From assembly GCA_030608005.1 (NCBI GenBank), contig JAUWIX010000011.1:1-39582 (forward strand): DNA of 39,582 nucleotides, read 5' to 3'. Below the pieces are notes generated by a model. The model was not told the origin of the DNA. It did not search any database and was given only the letters and a program-made list of their open reading frames with translations. Positions 3,391 to 32,109 of the stretch are shown here, piece by piece (the stretch's first letter is position 1; each line of letters starts with the position of its first letter). The stretch is from Dehalococcoidia bacterium. GTDB lineage: Bacteria; Chloroflexota; Dehalococcoidia; Dehalococcoidales; BS750m-G39. The translations under genes and the position numbers were made by a program.

Positions 3391-3540
3391 TTGAGATTGT
3401 TTGGAACCTATCCCCCTGCCCCCTTCCCTTAGTAAGGGAAGGGGGAGTGTAAGTAAGAGAGGGGCTTTGCCCCTCTCTAAATCTCTTCCCCCTCTCCTTT
3501 CAAGGAGAGGGGGATAAAGGGGGTGAGGTTAATAGACAAT
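3391..3540. repeat. Dispersed GC-hairpin repeat, copy 2 (upstream of nuoA)
   Basis: The element runs from AACCTATCCCCCTGCCCCC to GGGATAAAGGGGGTGAGGTT, so its ends are inverted complements of each other. It contains three hairpins: CCCCTTCCCTTAG/TAAGGGAAGGGG, a 10-bp stem at 3456-3478 with a TTT loop (GAGGGGC-TTT-GCCCCTC core) and CCCCCTCTCCTTTCAAGGAGAGGGGG. No coding potential is visible. It ends shortly before the predicted nuo promoter. Confidence 0.85.
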
Positions 3541-4575: not shown

Positions 4576-5016
4576 ATGACAGTAGCCCTTTCTGGTGAGG
4601 AAATAGCCAGCCAAATAGAGGAACATTTTCCAGGGAGCATTGCAGAATCTAGCCAACAAAGCCTGGTGGTGGACAAGGAGTTCCTATTAGTGGCAGCCAC
4701 TTATTTGAAGACCACACCCGGGCTTGACTTTGATTACCTCACCAGTATTACCGCTGTTGATTACTATGACTACTTTGAGGTGATTTACCAGCTAACCTCA
4801 TTACAGCATAATCACAGCCTGGTGGTGAAGACCCGATATTACGGTCGGGACAATCCCACCCTCCCCTCAGTGGTTGGTTTGTGGCAGGGGGCTGATTTTC
4901 AGGAGCGGGAGATTTACGACCTTATGGGGGTTAGTTTTGAGGGGCACCCCAATCTGAAGCGCATCTTCCTCTGGGAGGGGTTTAAGGGACATCCATTGCG
5001 TAAGGATTATTTATAA
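4576..5016 (+). CDS. nuoC: NADH-quinone oxidoreductase subunit C
   Basis: The 30-kDa subunit of the complex I connecting module. The family signature is at the C-terminus: REIYDLMGVSFEGHPNLKRI followed by GHPLRKDYL. The length of 146 aa is at the short end for NuoC, with little C-terminal extension. It is a separate protein, not fused to NuoD as in some bacteria. It follows nuoB directly. Downstream, a 267-nt repeat tract separates it from nuoD. Confidence 0.95.
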   Translation: MTVALSGEEIASQIEEHFPGSIAESSQQSLVVDKEFLLVAATYLKTTPGLDFDYLTSITAVDYYDYFEVIYQLTSLQHNHSLVVKTRYYGRDNPTLPSVVGLWQGADFQEREIYDLMGVSFEGHPNLKRIFLWEGFKGHPLRKDYL

Positions 5017-5262
5017 GGAGATTTTCTAGCAACCCATCCCCCTGCCCCCTTCCCTTACCAAGGAAGGGGGGTAAAGAAAAGGGGGGCAAAGCCCCCCTCT
5101 AAAATCTCTCCCCTTTGGAGGAGGAAAGGTTGAAGGAGAGTTAAAGAGAGGCGAAGCCCCTCTTGCAAAAAACTCCTTCCCCCTCCCTTGTAAGGGAGGG
5201 GGATATAAGGGGGAGGGTTGCTAAGTAAATATCTAAGGGGTGAGGTTAATAAATAGTTTCAT
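5017..5262. repeat. Dispersed GC-hairpin repeat, copy 3 (nuoC-nuoD gap)
   Basis: A composite element of several inverted arms. It begins AGCAACCCATCCCCCTGCCC and ends with a run reading GGGATATAAGGGGGAGGGTTGCTAAG in two overlapping parts, again with complementary ends. It holds a GGGGGGC-AAA-GCCCCCC hairpin near 5085-5100 and an imperfect GAGGC-GAA-GCCTC-type hairpin near 5145-5163. No ORF with homology is visible. The tract lies inside the operon, so it is transcribed with nuo mRNA if the operon is continuous. Confidence 0.85.
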
Positions 5263-5283
5263 TTATGAACGCTGGTTAAAAAA

Positions 5284-6387
5284 ATGGCAATTAAAACTGA
5301 ACCCTTTGTTATCAATATAGGTCCCCAGCACCCCAGCACCCACGGGGTGTTCAGGATGAGGTTGACCCTTGATGGGGAAGTCATTATAGATGTGGAGCCT
5401 ATTTTGGGCTATCTGCATCGGGGGATTGAGAAGCTGGCTGAGGGGCGAACCTACACCCAGAATATCCCTTTTACCGATAGGTTGGATTATCTGGCATCAA
5501 TGAGCAATAACCTGGCTTATGTTCTGGCAGTGGAAAAGCTGGCTGGGACTCCTGTCCCTGAGCGGGCTGAATACCTTCGGGTTATTATGGCTGAGTTACA
5601 GCGCATTGCCAGTCACCTGGTAGGTGTTGGTGCTTTTTTGAATGATTGTGGCGCTTTTATGACTCCCTTCCTATATATGTTCCGGGAGAGGGAAAAGATT
5701 CTAGACCTGTTTGAGATGGTCTGTGGTCAGCGGCTAACCTACAACTATATGCGGGTGGGGGGCATTAGCCAAGACGTTCCTGAAGAGTTTCTACCGGCGC
5801 TCAAAAAGTTTGTCCTGCAGATGCCGGGTTTCATTGATGAATATGACCAGCTTCTGGCTGAGAATGAGATATTGCTGGCTCGTGCCAAGGGTGTAGGCAT
5901 TCTGCCTAGGGAGCTAGCGATAAACACCTCTGCCAGTGGTCCGGTGCTCCGTGCCAGCGGGGTTAAATGGGATATTCGTAAGGCAGACCCCTACTCTATC
6001 TATGACCGCTTTGAGTTTGATATACCGACTGGCAATTTTGGTGACTGCTATGACCGTTACCGGGTGAGAATTCAAGAGATGAGGCAGAGCGTGCGCATCT
6101 TAAAACAGGCTATGGAGCAGTTGCCTCAGGGTGAGGTGAGAAGCGATGTGCCCCATCTAATCCGCCCACCTGTTGGTGAAGCCTATGGGCATATTGAAGC
6201 CCCCAAGGGTGAGCTTGGCTTTTATCTGGTGTCAGATAATTCTATTGCTCCCTATCGCTTTCACATCAGGGCGCCAACCCTAATCAACCTGACTGCTCTG
6301 CGGGACATGATGATTGGCTGGAAGGTGGCTGATGCCATAATTATCTTTGGCAGCATTGATATTTGCCTAGCCGAGGTGGATAGATAG
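5284..6387 (+). CDS. nuoD: NADH-quinone oxidoreductase subunit D
   Basis: The 49-kDa subunit, which forms the quinone-binding cavity with NuoB and derives from the large subunit of NiFe hydrogenases. The quinone-site motif GPQHPSTHGVFRM lies at residues 13-25. LHRGIEKLAEGRTYTQNIPF follows at about 45-64, and the C-terminus ends SIDICLAEVDR, as in other NuoD proteins. The hydrogenase-type metal-binding cysteines are absent, as expected. The length of 367 aa is normal. The start is ATG at 5284 and the upstream Shine-Dalgarno site is weak. Confidence 0.97.
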   Translation: MAIKTEPFVINIGPQHPSTHGVFRMRLTLDGEVIIDVEPILGYLHRGIEKLAEGRTYTQNIPFTDRLDYLASMSNNLAYVLAVEKLAGTPVPERAEYLRVIMAELQRIASHLVGVGAFLNDCGAFMTPFLYMFREREKILDLFEMVCGQRLTYNYMRVGGISQDVPEEFLPALKKFVLQMPGFIDEYDQLLAENEILLARAKGVGILPRELAINTSASGPVLRASGVKWDIRKADPYSIYDRFEFDIPTGNFGDCYDRYRVRIQEMRQSVRILKQAMEQLPQGEVRSDVPHLIRPPVGEAYGHIEAPKGELGFYLVSDNSIAPYRFHIRAPTLINLTALRDMMIGWKVADAIIIFGSIDICLAEVDR

Positions 6388-6399
6388 TGGCAGTAAATT

Positions 6400-6606
6400 T
6401 CCTAGCACCCGCACCCCCTTTATCCCCCTCTCCCTCAAGGGAGAGGGGGGGGAGACGAGAATAAGAGGGGCTAGCGCCCCTCTTAGACACCCTGAAAAGG
6501 AGGTAAATGCTAAAGGGAGAGTCAAAGAGAGGCGAAGCCTCTCTTATACAAAAATGTCCCCTTCCCCTTGTTAAGGGGAAGGGGACAAAGGGGATAGGGT
6601 TAATAA
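6400..6606. repeat. Dispersed GC-hairpin repeat, copy 4 (nuoD-nuoH gap)
   Basis: It starts with a CCCCCTCTCCCTCAAGGGAGAGGGGG arm pair and contains a GAGGGGC-TAGC-GCCCCTC hairpin. At 6525-6545 there is a 9-bp stem with a GAA loop (GAGAGGC-GAA-GCCTCTC core). It ends with CCCCTTCCCCTTGTTAAGGGGAAGGGG and the terminal AAAGGGGATAGGGTT. That terminal purine run falls 8 nt before the nuoH ATG and probably serves as its Shine-Dalgarno site. Confidence 0.85.
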
Positions 6607-6609
6607 AGA

Positions 6610-10104: not shown

Positions 10105-10416
10105 ATGGCTGTAGGTTTAGAACATTATCTTATACTATCCGCCGTTCTGTTCTCTATCGGGCTATATGGGGCTCTGGCTAAACGCAATGCCATTATTATC
10201 CTAATGTGTATCGAGCTTATGCTCAATGCGGTGAACATCGCTATGGTTGCCTTCTCCCGGTATATTGTGCCCTTACTGCTGACGGGGCAGGTGTTTGTTA
10301 TTTTCATTATGGTAGTGGCGGCAGCCGAGGCAGCCGTTGGCTTAGCCATAATAATATCTATTTATCGTAGCCGTGAGACGATAGACGCCACCAAAATCGA
10401 TTTGATGAAGTGGTAA
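10105..10416 (+). CDS. nuoK: NADH-quinone oxidoreductase subunit K
   Basis: A 103-aa membrane subunit with three helices. It contains the two membrane glutamates in MCIELMLNAVNIAMVAFSR (helix 2 region) and AAAEAAVGLAIIISIYR (helix 3), which form part of the central proton pathway. Length and motifs are typical of NuoK/MrpC-type subunits. The ATG is preceded by GGGAGAAG. A 379-nt repeat tract follows before the next gene. Confidence 0.96.
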   Translation: MAVGLEHYLILSAVLFSIGLYGALAKRNAIIILMCIELMLNAVNIAMVAFSRYIVPLLLTGQVFVIFIMVVAAAEAAVGLAIIISIYRSRETIDATKIDLMKW

Positions 10417-10424
10417 TTTGGATT

Positions 10425-10790
10425 TTTTAAGGAGGTAGTGTAGAGGGGCTCTGCCCCTGTTTAATGGTAACCCTATCCCCTTAATCCCCTTCCCCTTGTC
10501 GAGGGGAAGGGGAGGAATGAGTAAGAGAGGCTTCCCCTCTCTATAACTCTTCTGAATTTGGGATAGCAATAGGGAGTTTAAGAGGAACGGAGTTCCCCAA
10601 TACCTAATCGGGGAGTCCAGGAGGGGCGAAGCCCCTCTCAAGAAAACACCCTCCCCCTCTCCTTTGGGGGAGGAGAGTTAAAAAGAAGATTGGTCTAACA
10701 GGGAGTCGGAGAGGGACGAAGTCCCTCTCGAAAAAACTCCTCCCCCCTCTCCTTTGAAGGAGAGGGGGATACAGGGGGTGAGGTAGAAAC
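10425..10790. repeat. Dispersed GC-hairpin repeat, copy 5 (nuoK downstream; composite)
   Basis: This is the richest tract. It holds hairpins AGGGGC-TCT-GCCCCT (10444-10458), GGAAC-GGA-GTTCC (10584-10596), GAGGGGC-GAA-GCCCCTC (10621-10637) and GAGAGGGAC at 10709-10717 pairing with GTCCCTCTC at 10721-10729 across a GAA loop. It also has C-rich/G-rich arm pairs, among them AACCCTATCCCC near 10469-10480 and GGGGGTGAGGT at the end. The different stems keep their pairing with different bases. No gene is visible in these 366 nt. Confidence 0.85.
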
Positions 10791-10795
10791 TCGAT

Positions 10796-10990
10796 ATGTG
10801 GGTAGAGGTTAAAAAAGCAGATAGCTTAAAGGGGGCTGAGAAGTGGAAGGAACTGTTTGAGGGTGAGGGGATACCCACCCGCATCCTGCCCGTCTCTGGT
10901 GAGCCTCCGGGCAGGGAAATAGCTACCTATTCTATCCTTGTGCCCAAGGATAGGGAGCATATTATACAGGAGGTATTGAGGAAGCTGTAA
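10796..10990 (+). CDS. Small soluble protein, possibly DUF2007-like, between nuoK and nuoL
   Basis: A 64-aa protein with an alternating beta/alpha pattern. It starts MWVEVKKADSLKGAEKWKEL, has EGEGIPTRILPV in the middle and ends REHIIQEVLRKL. The shape fits small DUF2007-type proteins, which have one ferredoxin-like fold with an XGIP turn, but this is pattern recognition and not a firm match. Its TAA stop overlaps the nuoL ATG (TAATG), so nuoL translation is probably coupled to it. That argues it is a real gene and not part of the repeat. No cysteines or membrane segment are present. It may be an accessory or assembly factor for complex I, but that is a guess from position only. Confidence 0.65.
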   Translation: MWVEVKKADSLKGAEKWKELFEGEGIPTRILPVSGEPPGREIATYSILVPKDREHIIQEVLRKL

Positions 10991-12885: not shown

Positions 12886-13262
12886 GGAGATTTTTTAGCA
12901 ACCTATCCCCCTGACCCCCTTCCCTTACTAGGGAAGGGGGAGTGAAGGGAAGAGAGGGGGCTTTGCCCCCTCTCTAAAGACTCTTCTCCTTGGGGGAGAA
13001 AAGGTTGAAGGAGAGTTAAAGAGAGGCGAAGCCTCAAAATATGTTATAAGGAGTCCCCTCGAATATAGGGAGTTTTAGAGGGGCGAAGCCTCTCTAAGGG
13101 CAATCCCTCCCCTTTGGAGGAGAAGGAGGTTAATCTAACAGGGTGTCAGAGAGGGGCGAAGCCCCTCTTCAGAAAAAATCTTCCCCCTCCCTTGTAAGGG
13201 AGGGGGATAAAGGGGGAGAGTTGGTAGGTAAATATTTAGGGGTGAGGTTGATAAACAATTTT
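12886..13262. repeat. Dispersed GC-hairpin repeat, copy 6 (nuoL-nuoM gap; composite)
   Basis: It starts AGCAACCTATCCCCCTGACC and ends GGGATAAAGGGGGAGAGTTGG with a further GGGGTGAGGTTGATAAAC. Hairpins include an 11-bp stem at 12951-12975 with a TTT loop, GAGGC-GAA-GCCTC (13023-13035), an imperfect GGGGC-GAA-GCCTC form near 13077-13096 and GAGGGGC-GAA-GCCCCTC (13151-13167). No gene is visible in this 377-nt stretch, which otherwise only separates nuoL from nuoM. Confidence 0.85.
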
Positions 13263-23153: not shown

Positions 23154-23312
23154 TATTAGGTAACCCTATCCCCTTTATCCCCTTCCCCTTATCAAGGGGA
23201 AGGGGAAGTAGTTTTTTGGAAGGGGCGAAGCCCCTCTTTAACTCTCCTTTAGTATATACCCCTTCAAGGGGGAGTGGGAAGTAGTTTTTTGGAAGGGGCG
23301 AAGCCCCTTCCC
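23154..23312. repeat. Dispersed GC-hairpin repeat, copy 9, with internal tandem duplication
   Basis: It begins AGGTAACCCTATCCCC and contains CCCCTTCCCCTTATCAAGGGGAAGGGG. A 30-nt unit including AAGTAGTTTTTTGGAAGGGG and its GCGAAGC hairpin is present twice, about 73 nt apart (around 23205 and 23278). The second stem is GGAAGGGGC pairing with GCCCCTTCC (23291-23311); the first has a different lower stem. No gene is visible. Confidence 0.85.
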
Positions 23313-31924: not shown

Positions 31925-32109
31925 TTTATCCCCCTCTCCCTCAAGGGAGAGGGGGATAAGAAGAAAGAGGGGGCGAAGCCCCCTCTTTGACTCCCTATAA
32001 TATGTTTGGGGGCTTCCCCTCCAGGGGAAGGGGGTCAGGGGGATGGGGTCAATGCTGAAGAGAAACGAAACATGATAATCTGTGTCACCTATCTATCTGA
32101 ACTAGCTCA
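31925..32109. repeat. Dispersed GC-hairpin repeat, copy 10, plus long shared segment B
   Basis: It begins TTTATCCCCCTCTCCCTCAA with the matching GGGAGAGGGGGATAA arm. An 11-bp stem with a GAA loop lies at 31964-31988 (AGGGGGC-GAA-GCCCCCT core). The segment 32011-32109 is the second copy of the sequence at 2562-2658, ending GAACTAGCTCA. No gene is visible. It separates the divergently transcribed mmdA-like and folP genes. Confidence 0.85.

Follow-up and report, generated by a model that had tools for sequence, protein, structure and literature searches.

A dispersed intergenic repeat of a Dehalococcoidia genome with two potential intrastrand DNA triplexes and third strands that co-vary with the hairpin arms

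We consider it probable (roughly three chances in four) that the hairpins of the DNA analyzed here are parts of a dispersed intergenic repeat of two potential antiparallel purine-motif intrastrand triplexes, and that the thing maintained is a three-strand DNA fold. The window, a stretch of 39,582 nt, is contig 36 of a draft genome of 1.12 Mb (87% complete) from a Dehalococcoidia bacterium, and by its NuoL the genome falls close to Dehalococcoidales records. Each hairpin (B) was found to be half of a unit of about 100 nt, the other half being a polypyrimidine/polypurine palindrome (A), as in GGGAGTTTTA-B-linker-CCCCCTCTCCTT..AAGGAGAGGGGG-ATAA-AGGGGGTGAGGTT, and the units stand alone, form inverted pairs, or follow the order A-B-A. 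As predicted, a class I unit would consist of a 5' third strand, a purine arm, a GAA-capped loop and a pyrimidine arm, and the class II unit after it of a pyrimidine arm, a loop, a purine arm and a third strand, with the third strand lying 3 nt from its duplex in both classes. Whenever the strand becomes single during replication, repair or transcription, the hairpin would fold and the G-rich third strand would settle into its major groove. Paired substitutions in the arms would then be one facet of the maintained three-strand fold.

The survey covered 572 kb, about half of the genome, in stretches picked mostly around matches and with simple ORFs as gene calls. This yielded 113 B hairpins and 131 A palindromes, nearly all of them between ORFs, and 77 of the 113 hairpins carried a GAA loop. 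Arm subfamilies are few (GAGGGGC, GAGAGGC, GAGGGAC, GAAGGGG and GGGGGC). A search of the 1.12-Mb genome for the exact 17-mer GAGGGGCGAAGCCCCTC gave 26 occurrences, its reversed-pattern control gave 0, and a 15-mer core was present in 23 of 41 genomes searched, this one included. The exact class I sequence is not spread across the phylum: it was detected among 301 sampled genomes in this genome only, and a single exact sequence is therefore a poor probe.

The observation that carries the triplex reading is a purine tract 3 nt from the purine arm that is the mirror image of that arm, with G opposite G and A or T opposite A. The third strand is specific to the arm subtype: GAGGGAC goes with AGGGAGT, GAGAGGC with GGAGAGT and GAAGGGG with GGGGAAG. 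On the B hairpins this tract lies on the 5' side behind a 3-nt spacer, with GGAGAGT preceding AGAGAGG in 12 of 13 cases, AGGGAGT preceding AGAGGGA in 4 of 6, and GGGGAAG, GGGGTAG, AGGGTAG or similar preceding GAAGGGG in 12 of 15 hairpins; the spacers that the arm bases adjoin are variable. The neighboring palindromes behave likewise, GGAGAGGGGG going with GGGGGTGAGG, and the tail of an A palindrome mirrors its purine arm, each A being faced by T or A (AAGGAGAGGGGGA/AGGGGGTGAGGTT, AAGGGAGGGGGA/AGGGGGAGGGTT, AAGGGGAGAGGGA/AGGGTGAGGGGTT, AAGGGGAAGGGGA/AGGGGATAGGGTT). Genome G024 has additional arm types that were met in no other genome here, GGGAAGAGGG with GGGAGATGGG and GGAGAAGGGG with GGGGATGAGG. 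The strand order is that of purine-motif intrastrand triplex elements (PMC4666352), third strand-purine-pyrimidine in class I and pyrimidine-purine-third strand in class II. A matching third strand was found in 116 of the 131 A palindromes of the 572 kb, nearly always at 3 nt, and 62 of the 113 B hairpins matched in at least 6 of 7 triads; the B hairpins that lacked a third strand by this test make up almost half and include those at 23291 and 31964.

In shuffle and permutation tests, the antiparallel placement of G over G-C and of A or T over A-T exceeded what composition gives. Distinct class II arm and tail pairs averaged 9.20 of 10 triads versus 8.49 with the tails shuffled, a high baseline that G-rich tracts reach by composition alone (8.5/10), and none of 2000 shuffles scored as high. 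The same test gave 0/2000 each in G001, G002 and G015, a genome of another family, and was weak in the small samples from G029 (226/2000), G024 (160/2000) and G038 (41/2000). For class I, a fixed-spacer test gave 6.20 of 7 triads versus 5.13 shuffled (0/5000), with Fisher p values of 1.9e-9, 2.4e-11 and 9e-11 for individual triads; a shuffle that included strands lacking a third strand was uninformative (5.19 versus 5.08). Elsewhere, the class I test gave 0/5000 in G002 and 1/5000 in G001, the latter becoming 141/5000 once collapsed to distinct pairs. Copies move as cassettes, which leaves about 8 independent arm types in class II and 4 in class I. When each arm type was reduced to one row, with modal tails picked by eye, class II matched in 77 of 80 triads, a value reached by 2 of 40320 permutations, and class I in 28 of 28, reached by 1 of 24. 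Sixteen double elements have different arms on their two sides, and here a tail fitted its own arm better in 28 comparisons, worse in 1 and equally in 3. These elements rule out that the third strand is just a terminal inverted repeat.

Within the window, several copies lie between nuoK and nuoL. On the plus strand, a class I unit at 10700..10728 has the third strand AGGGAGT (10700-10706), spacer CGG, arm AGAGGGAC (10710-10717), loop GAA (10718-10720) and pyrimidine arm GTCCCTCT (10721-10728), contains GAGGGAC-GAA-GTCCCTC (10711-10727), and matches in 7/7 triads. It is followed by a plus-strand class II unit at 10743..10784 with 10/10 triads (palindrome CCCCCTCTCCTTTGAAGGAGAGGGGG at 10743-10768, spacer to 10772, third strand AGGGGGTGAGGT at 10773-10784). 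Two further plus-strand class I units, each with 6/7 triads, lie at 10610..10638 (third strand GGGGAGT at 10610-10616, spacer CCA, arm GGAGGGGC, loop GAA at 10628-10630, arm GCCCCTCT, containing GAGGGGC-GAA-GCCCCTC at 10621-10637) and at 10571..10596 (third strand AGGGAGT at 10571-10577, spacer TTA, hairpin GGAAC-GGA-GTTCC at 10584-10596). A class II unit at 10469..10513 has its purine strand on the minus strand, with palindrome TCCCCTTCCCCTTGTCGAGGGGAAGGGGA at 10485-10513, third strand AGGGGATAGGGTT (minus, 10481-10469) and 9/10 triads. Elsewhere on the plus strand, the class I unit at 6516..6544 (third strand GGAGAGT at 6516-6522, spacer CAA, GAGAGGC-GAA-GCCTCTC at 6527-6543) scores 7/7, and the A-type palindrome TGTCCCCTTCCCCTTGTTAAGGGGAAGGGGACA at 6555..6587 scored no class II third strand in the automatic test. 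A class I unit at 5135..5163 (plus) combines the third strand GGAGAGT with a GAGAGGC/GCCCCTC hairpin at 5146 that holds one uncompensated A.C mismatch, and the plus-strand class II unit at 5178..5219 (arm CCCCCTCCCTT..AAGGGAGGGGG) has the matching third strand AGGGGGAGGGTT and 10/10 triads. The outward-facing double element at 3404..3530 uses both strands, with a minus class II (third strand GGGGGATAGGTT) and a plus class II (third strand AGGGGGTGAGGTT) around the B hairpin GAGGGGC-TTT-GCCCCTC at 3459-3475, and each third strand is fitted better by its own arm than by the opposite one. Three more plus-strand units were found at 13067..13095 (class I, third strand AGGGAGT, hairpin GAGGGGC/GCCTCTC at 13078 with one uncompensated G.T, 6/7 triads), 13140..13168 (class I, third strand AGGGTGT, hairpin GAGGGGC-GAA-GCCCCTC, 6/7) and 13182..13222 (class II, CCCCCTCCCTT palindrome, third strand AGGGGGAGAGTT, 9/10). 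The plus-strand hairpins at 23291..23311 (GGAAGGGGC-GAA-GCCCCTTCC) and 31964..31988 (AAAGAGGGGGC-GAA-GCCCCCTCTTT, containing AGGGGGC-GAA-GCCCCCT at 31968-31984) are two-strand copies in which a third strand was not found.

Two other repeats were encountered inside the units. At about 9 sites, which differ in arm type, the spacer that separates the purine arm from the third strand contains a hairpin repeat of about 36 nt (CGGGTTCCCAGGAAAATCRAAGATTTTTCTGGGTGC), itself mostly flanked by TAAAG on both sides (L119, L133, L189, L192 and L194 in this genome; L149, L175, L187 and L232 in relatives). A repeat beginning GTCATTGCGAGGAGCG lies within the loop of A palindromes at L116 17197, L131, L164 (G002) and L213 (G015), and the flanks common to its copies suggest one long-loop variant.

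The hairpins themselves were the starting point of the earlier note, and the six that it had named from the sequence alone were all found at their positions. Its observation that pairing is kept while the bases differ also held: when hairpins were collected with the left arm as the only query and the right arm left free, the right arms nearly always paired. Watson-Crick pairs made up 83% over 24 distinct arm combinations versus 70.5% when the right arms were redealt as wholes (highest value in 2000 shuffles, 79%). Departures of the left arm from GAGGGGC were compensated in 18 of 23 cases, although the compensated changes cluster in few subfamilies and independent events are fewer than copies. 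The GCGAAGC loop forms an exceptionally stable DNA mini-hairpin, and this stability would fit a role in DNA.

Paired changes of this kind could also arise with no selection for structure at all, through template switching (quasipalindrome correction and loop inversion) together with conversion among the dispersed copies; the mirror tract would then be a relic of subfamily history. Template switching between inverted repeats is known to cause loop inversion and arm homogenization (PMC8604942, PMC8794818), it can generate compensatory changes (PMC8794818), and GAA/TTC spacer flips have been documented in yeast (PMC8604942). Loop inversion and arm homogenization between relatives were both found here. 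Of 8 orthologous hairpins that could be compared, 5 have an inverted loop (GAA versus TTN), the best case being the plus-strand B hairpin AGGGGGC-TTT-GCCCCCT at 12955..12971, where G001 and G008 have GAA in orthologous copies whose flanks are 100% and 91% identical; elsewhere the flanks agree less well, and an element may have been replaced. At L119 1580 and 5676, A arms and tail are swapped together between this genome and G002 with the neighboring B unchanged, as conversion between copies would give. Arm covariation by itself is therefore weak evidence for a maintained structure, since the loop flips between orthologous copies indicate template switching, and stem covariation can be mistaken for selection on RNA if template switching is not controlled for. 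Thus, the earlier claim that paired substitutions are the mark of selection was correct as to the kept pairing and too strong as to its cause. As a full account of the repeat, we nevertheless regard these copying processes as unlikely: simple template switching copies reverse complements, not mirrors, and does not predict that each arm type should have its own mirror third strand. The co-variation of the third strand with both arms, which the earlier note missed while correctly reporting the arm pairing, is stronger evidence for a maintained structure than the arms are. Template switching at the folded DNA would also contribute, through arm homogenization and loop flipping.

Mobilization as REP/IS200-type ends by an HUH (Y1) transposase would agree with the high copy number of intergenic palindromes, the frequent GAA loop, and insertions that are missing from relatives. 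Orthologous gaps are empty in relatives at window 5016-5283 and 6387-6609, L125 6114, L192 8749 and L194 12305; with respect to MITE criteria, such empty sites are present and a target-site duplication is not clear. However, a search for the Y1 family (PF01797) found no match in this incomplete genome (E up to 1) or in 22 of 23 motif-bearing genomes, also incomplete; the HUH proteins for which the earlier note had suggested a binding test are, as far as the Y1 type is concerned, not supported here. REP/BIME/REPIN elements with their RAYT (Y1) proteins are similar as short extragenic palindromes in mosaic clusters and both orientations, but they are defined without a third-strand layout, and we consider this origin improbable.

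A G-quadruplex motif with a complementary C-rich arm, in place of a triplex, appears comparably improbable. The CTTCCCC class does carry four G-runs (GGGGAAGGGGATAAAGGGGATGGGG), and such motifs are able to switch between triplex and G4 (PMC8044849). Class I units, however, have just two long G-runs, those of most other class II types are broken, and a G4 does not need the mirror placement of A and T.

Least credible, and in our judgment very improbable, is that the repeats are RNA hairpins that act on mRNA of the nuo operon, through its processing, stability or termination, as the earlier note had considered: hairpins do lie between co-directional nuo genes, but B density in the 572 kb was 1.6 per kb alike in tandem (63 in 38.3 kb), divergent (26 in 16.1 kb) and convergent gaps (9 in 5.7 kb), a T-run followed only 3 of 44 stems, no Rfam family matched the repeat, and RNA is stated to be unable to form purine-motif triplexes (PMC4666352). 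Selection on the transcript strand should tolerate G.U and not A.C, and the counts show otherwise, with 16 G.T versus 23 A.C on the GAA strand (this genome and relatives) and 7 G.U versus 11 A.C on the transcript strand of tandem gaps. An intrinsic terminator or 3' mRNA hairpin was rejected on the undepleted divergent gaps and the few T-runs. Regulation specific to nuo was rejected as well, orthologous nuo gaps being empty or otherwise filled in relatives; G004 and several public relatives had zero repeats in the nuo gaps examined. Of the proposal that the active form is single-stranded DNA as well as RNA, the DNA part is the better candidate and the RNA part found no support. The purine strand of triplex units is mostly on the coding strand of the flanking genes in tandem gaps of this genome (class I, 26:5 regions; class II, 31:10). 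This bias points to selection against triplexes on the template strand or to insertion in a preferred orientation, and it leaves some room for a transcript-level effect.

The nuo gaps also contain small reading frames. The nuoK-nuoL interval (window 10416-10989) ends in a small ORF, MWVEVKKADSLKG..., at 10797-10989, and similar ORFs were seen in L036, L038, L040 and several family members. In the nuoL-nuoM gap of G001 (L156/L143), an ORF that resembles an HNH endonuclease by eye adjoins the repeats and is missing in this genome, and the same gap of G005 (L146) holds an uncharacterised ORF of about 115 aa flanked by repeat copies.

The intrastrand triplex interpretation has its closest parallel in the PIT/BoxC/TM_ECO repeats of E. 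coli and relatives (Hoyne and Maher; Holder et al. 2015, PMC4666352), which are likewise intergenic, present in tens to hundreds of copies and sometimes in inverted pairs, flanked by genes without a common function, and built in the class II order of pyrimidine, purine and third strand with a 3-nt second loop and a G/C-rich antiparallel purine motif. They differ in belonging to another phylum and in showing no strand bias, whereas the repeat described here has the coding-strand bias, several arm types, every one with a third strand that matches it, and a GAA-loop class I joined to class II. The TM_ECO/BoxC consensus CCCTCNCCC-N3-6-GGGNGAGGG-N3-GGGNGAGGG gave 0 exact matches in this genome. We propose that the composite of class I and class II is a new variant of PIT/BoxC-like triplex repeats. 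The G4/triplex motifs of Methanomicrobiaceae (PMC8044849) are also intergenic repeats with the G-rich strand 5' of its C-rich partner; they are archaeal and were shown in vitro to adopt an antiparallel triplex or a G4 fold, and the available part of that report describes neither a class II partner nor a diversity of arm types. Quasipalindrome template-switch hot spots (PMC8604942, PMC8794818) share arm homogenization and GAA/TTC spacer inversion, but account for the arm changes and not for the mirror third strand. No earlier report of three-way covariation between arms and third strand was found in a limited literature search.

By CD and NMR, a class II motif of this layout was seen to give stable triplexes in vitro. 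The related E. coli motif has a melting temperature of 70-82 C and stops polymerase in vitro, but DMS footprinting in vivo showed no stable triplex and no clear signal (PMC4666352). In the cell, triplexes may form transiently in the repeat at forks or repair gaps and would pause polymerases, stalling or redirecting them, and such pauses could supply the template switches visible as loop flips; the copies may persist mainly as self-propagating repeats. It is also conceivable, at somewhat less than even odds, that natural selection maintains the intrastrand triplex, in which case arm types that changed repeatedly together with their third strand would be evolutionary evidence for triplexes acting in living cells. 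Many arm types, each with its matching third strand, provide comparative evidence that is testable by swaps of arms and third strands. Finally, the window contains a second, longer repeat tail, GGGGTCAATGCTG.GGAGAAACGAAAC..., whose copies at 2562-2621 and 32011-32070 are 92% identical over 60 nt.
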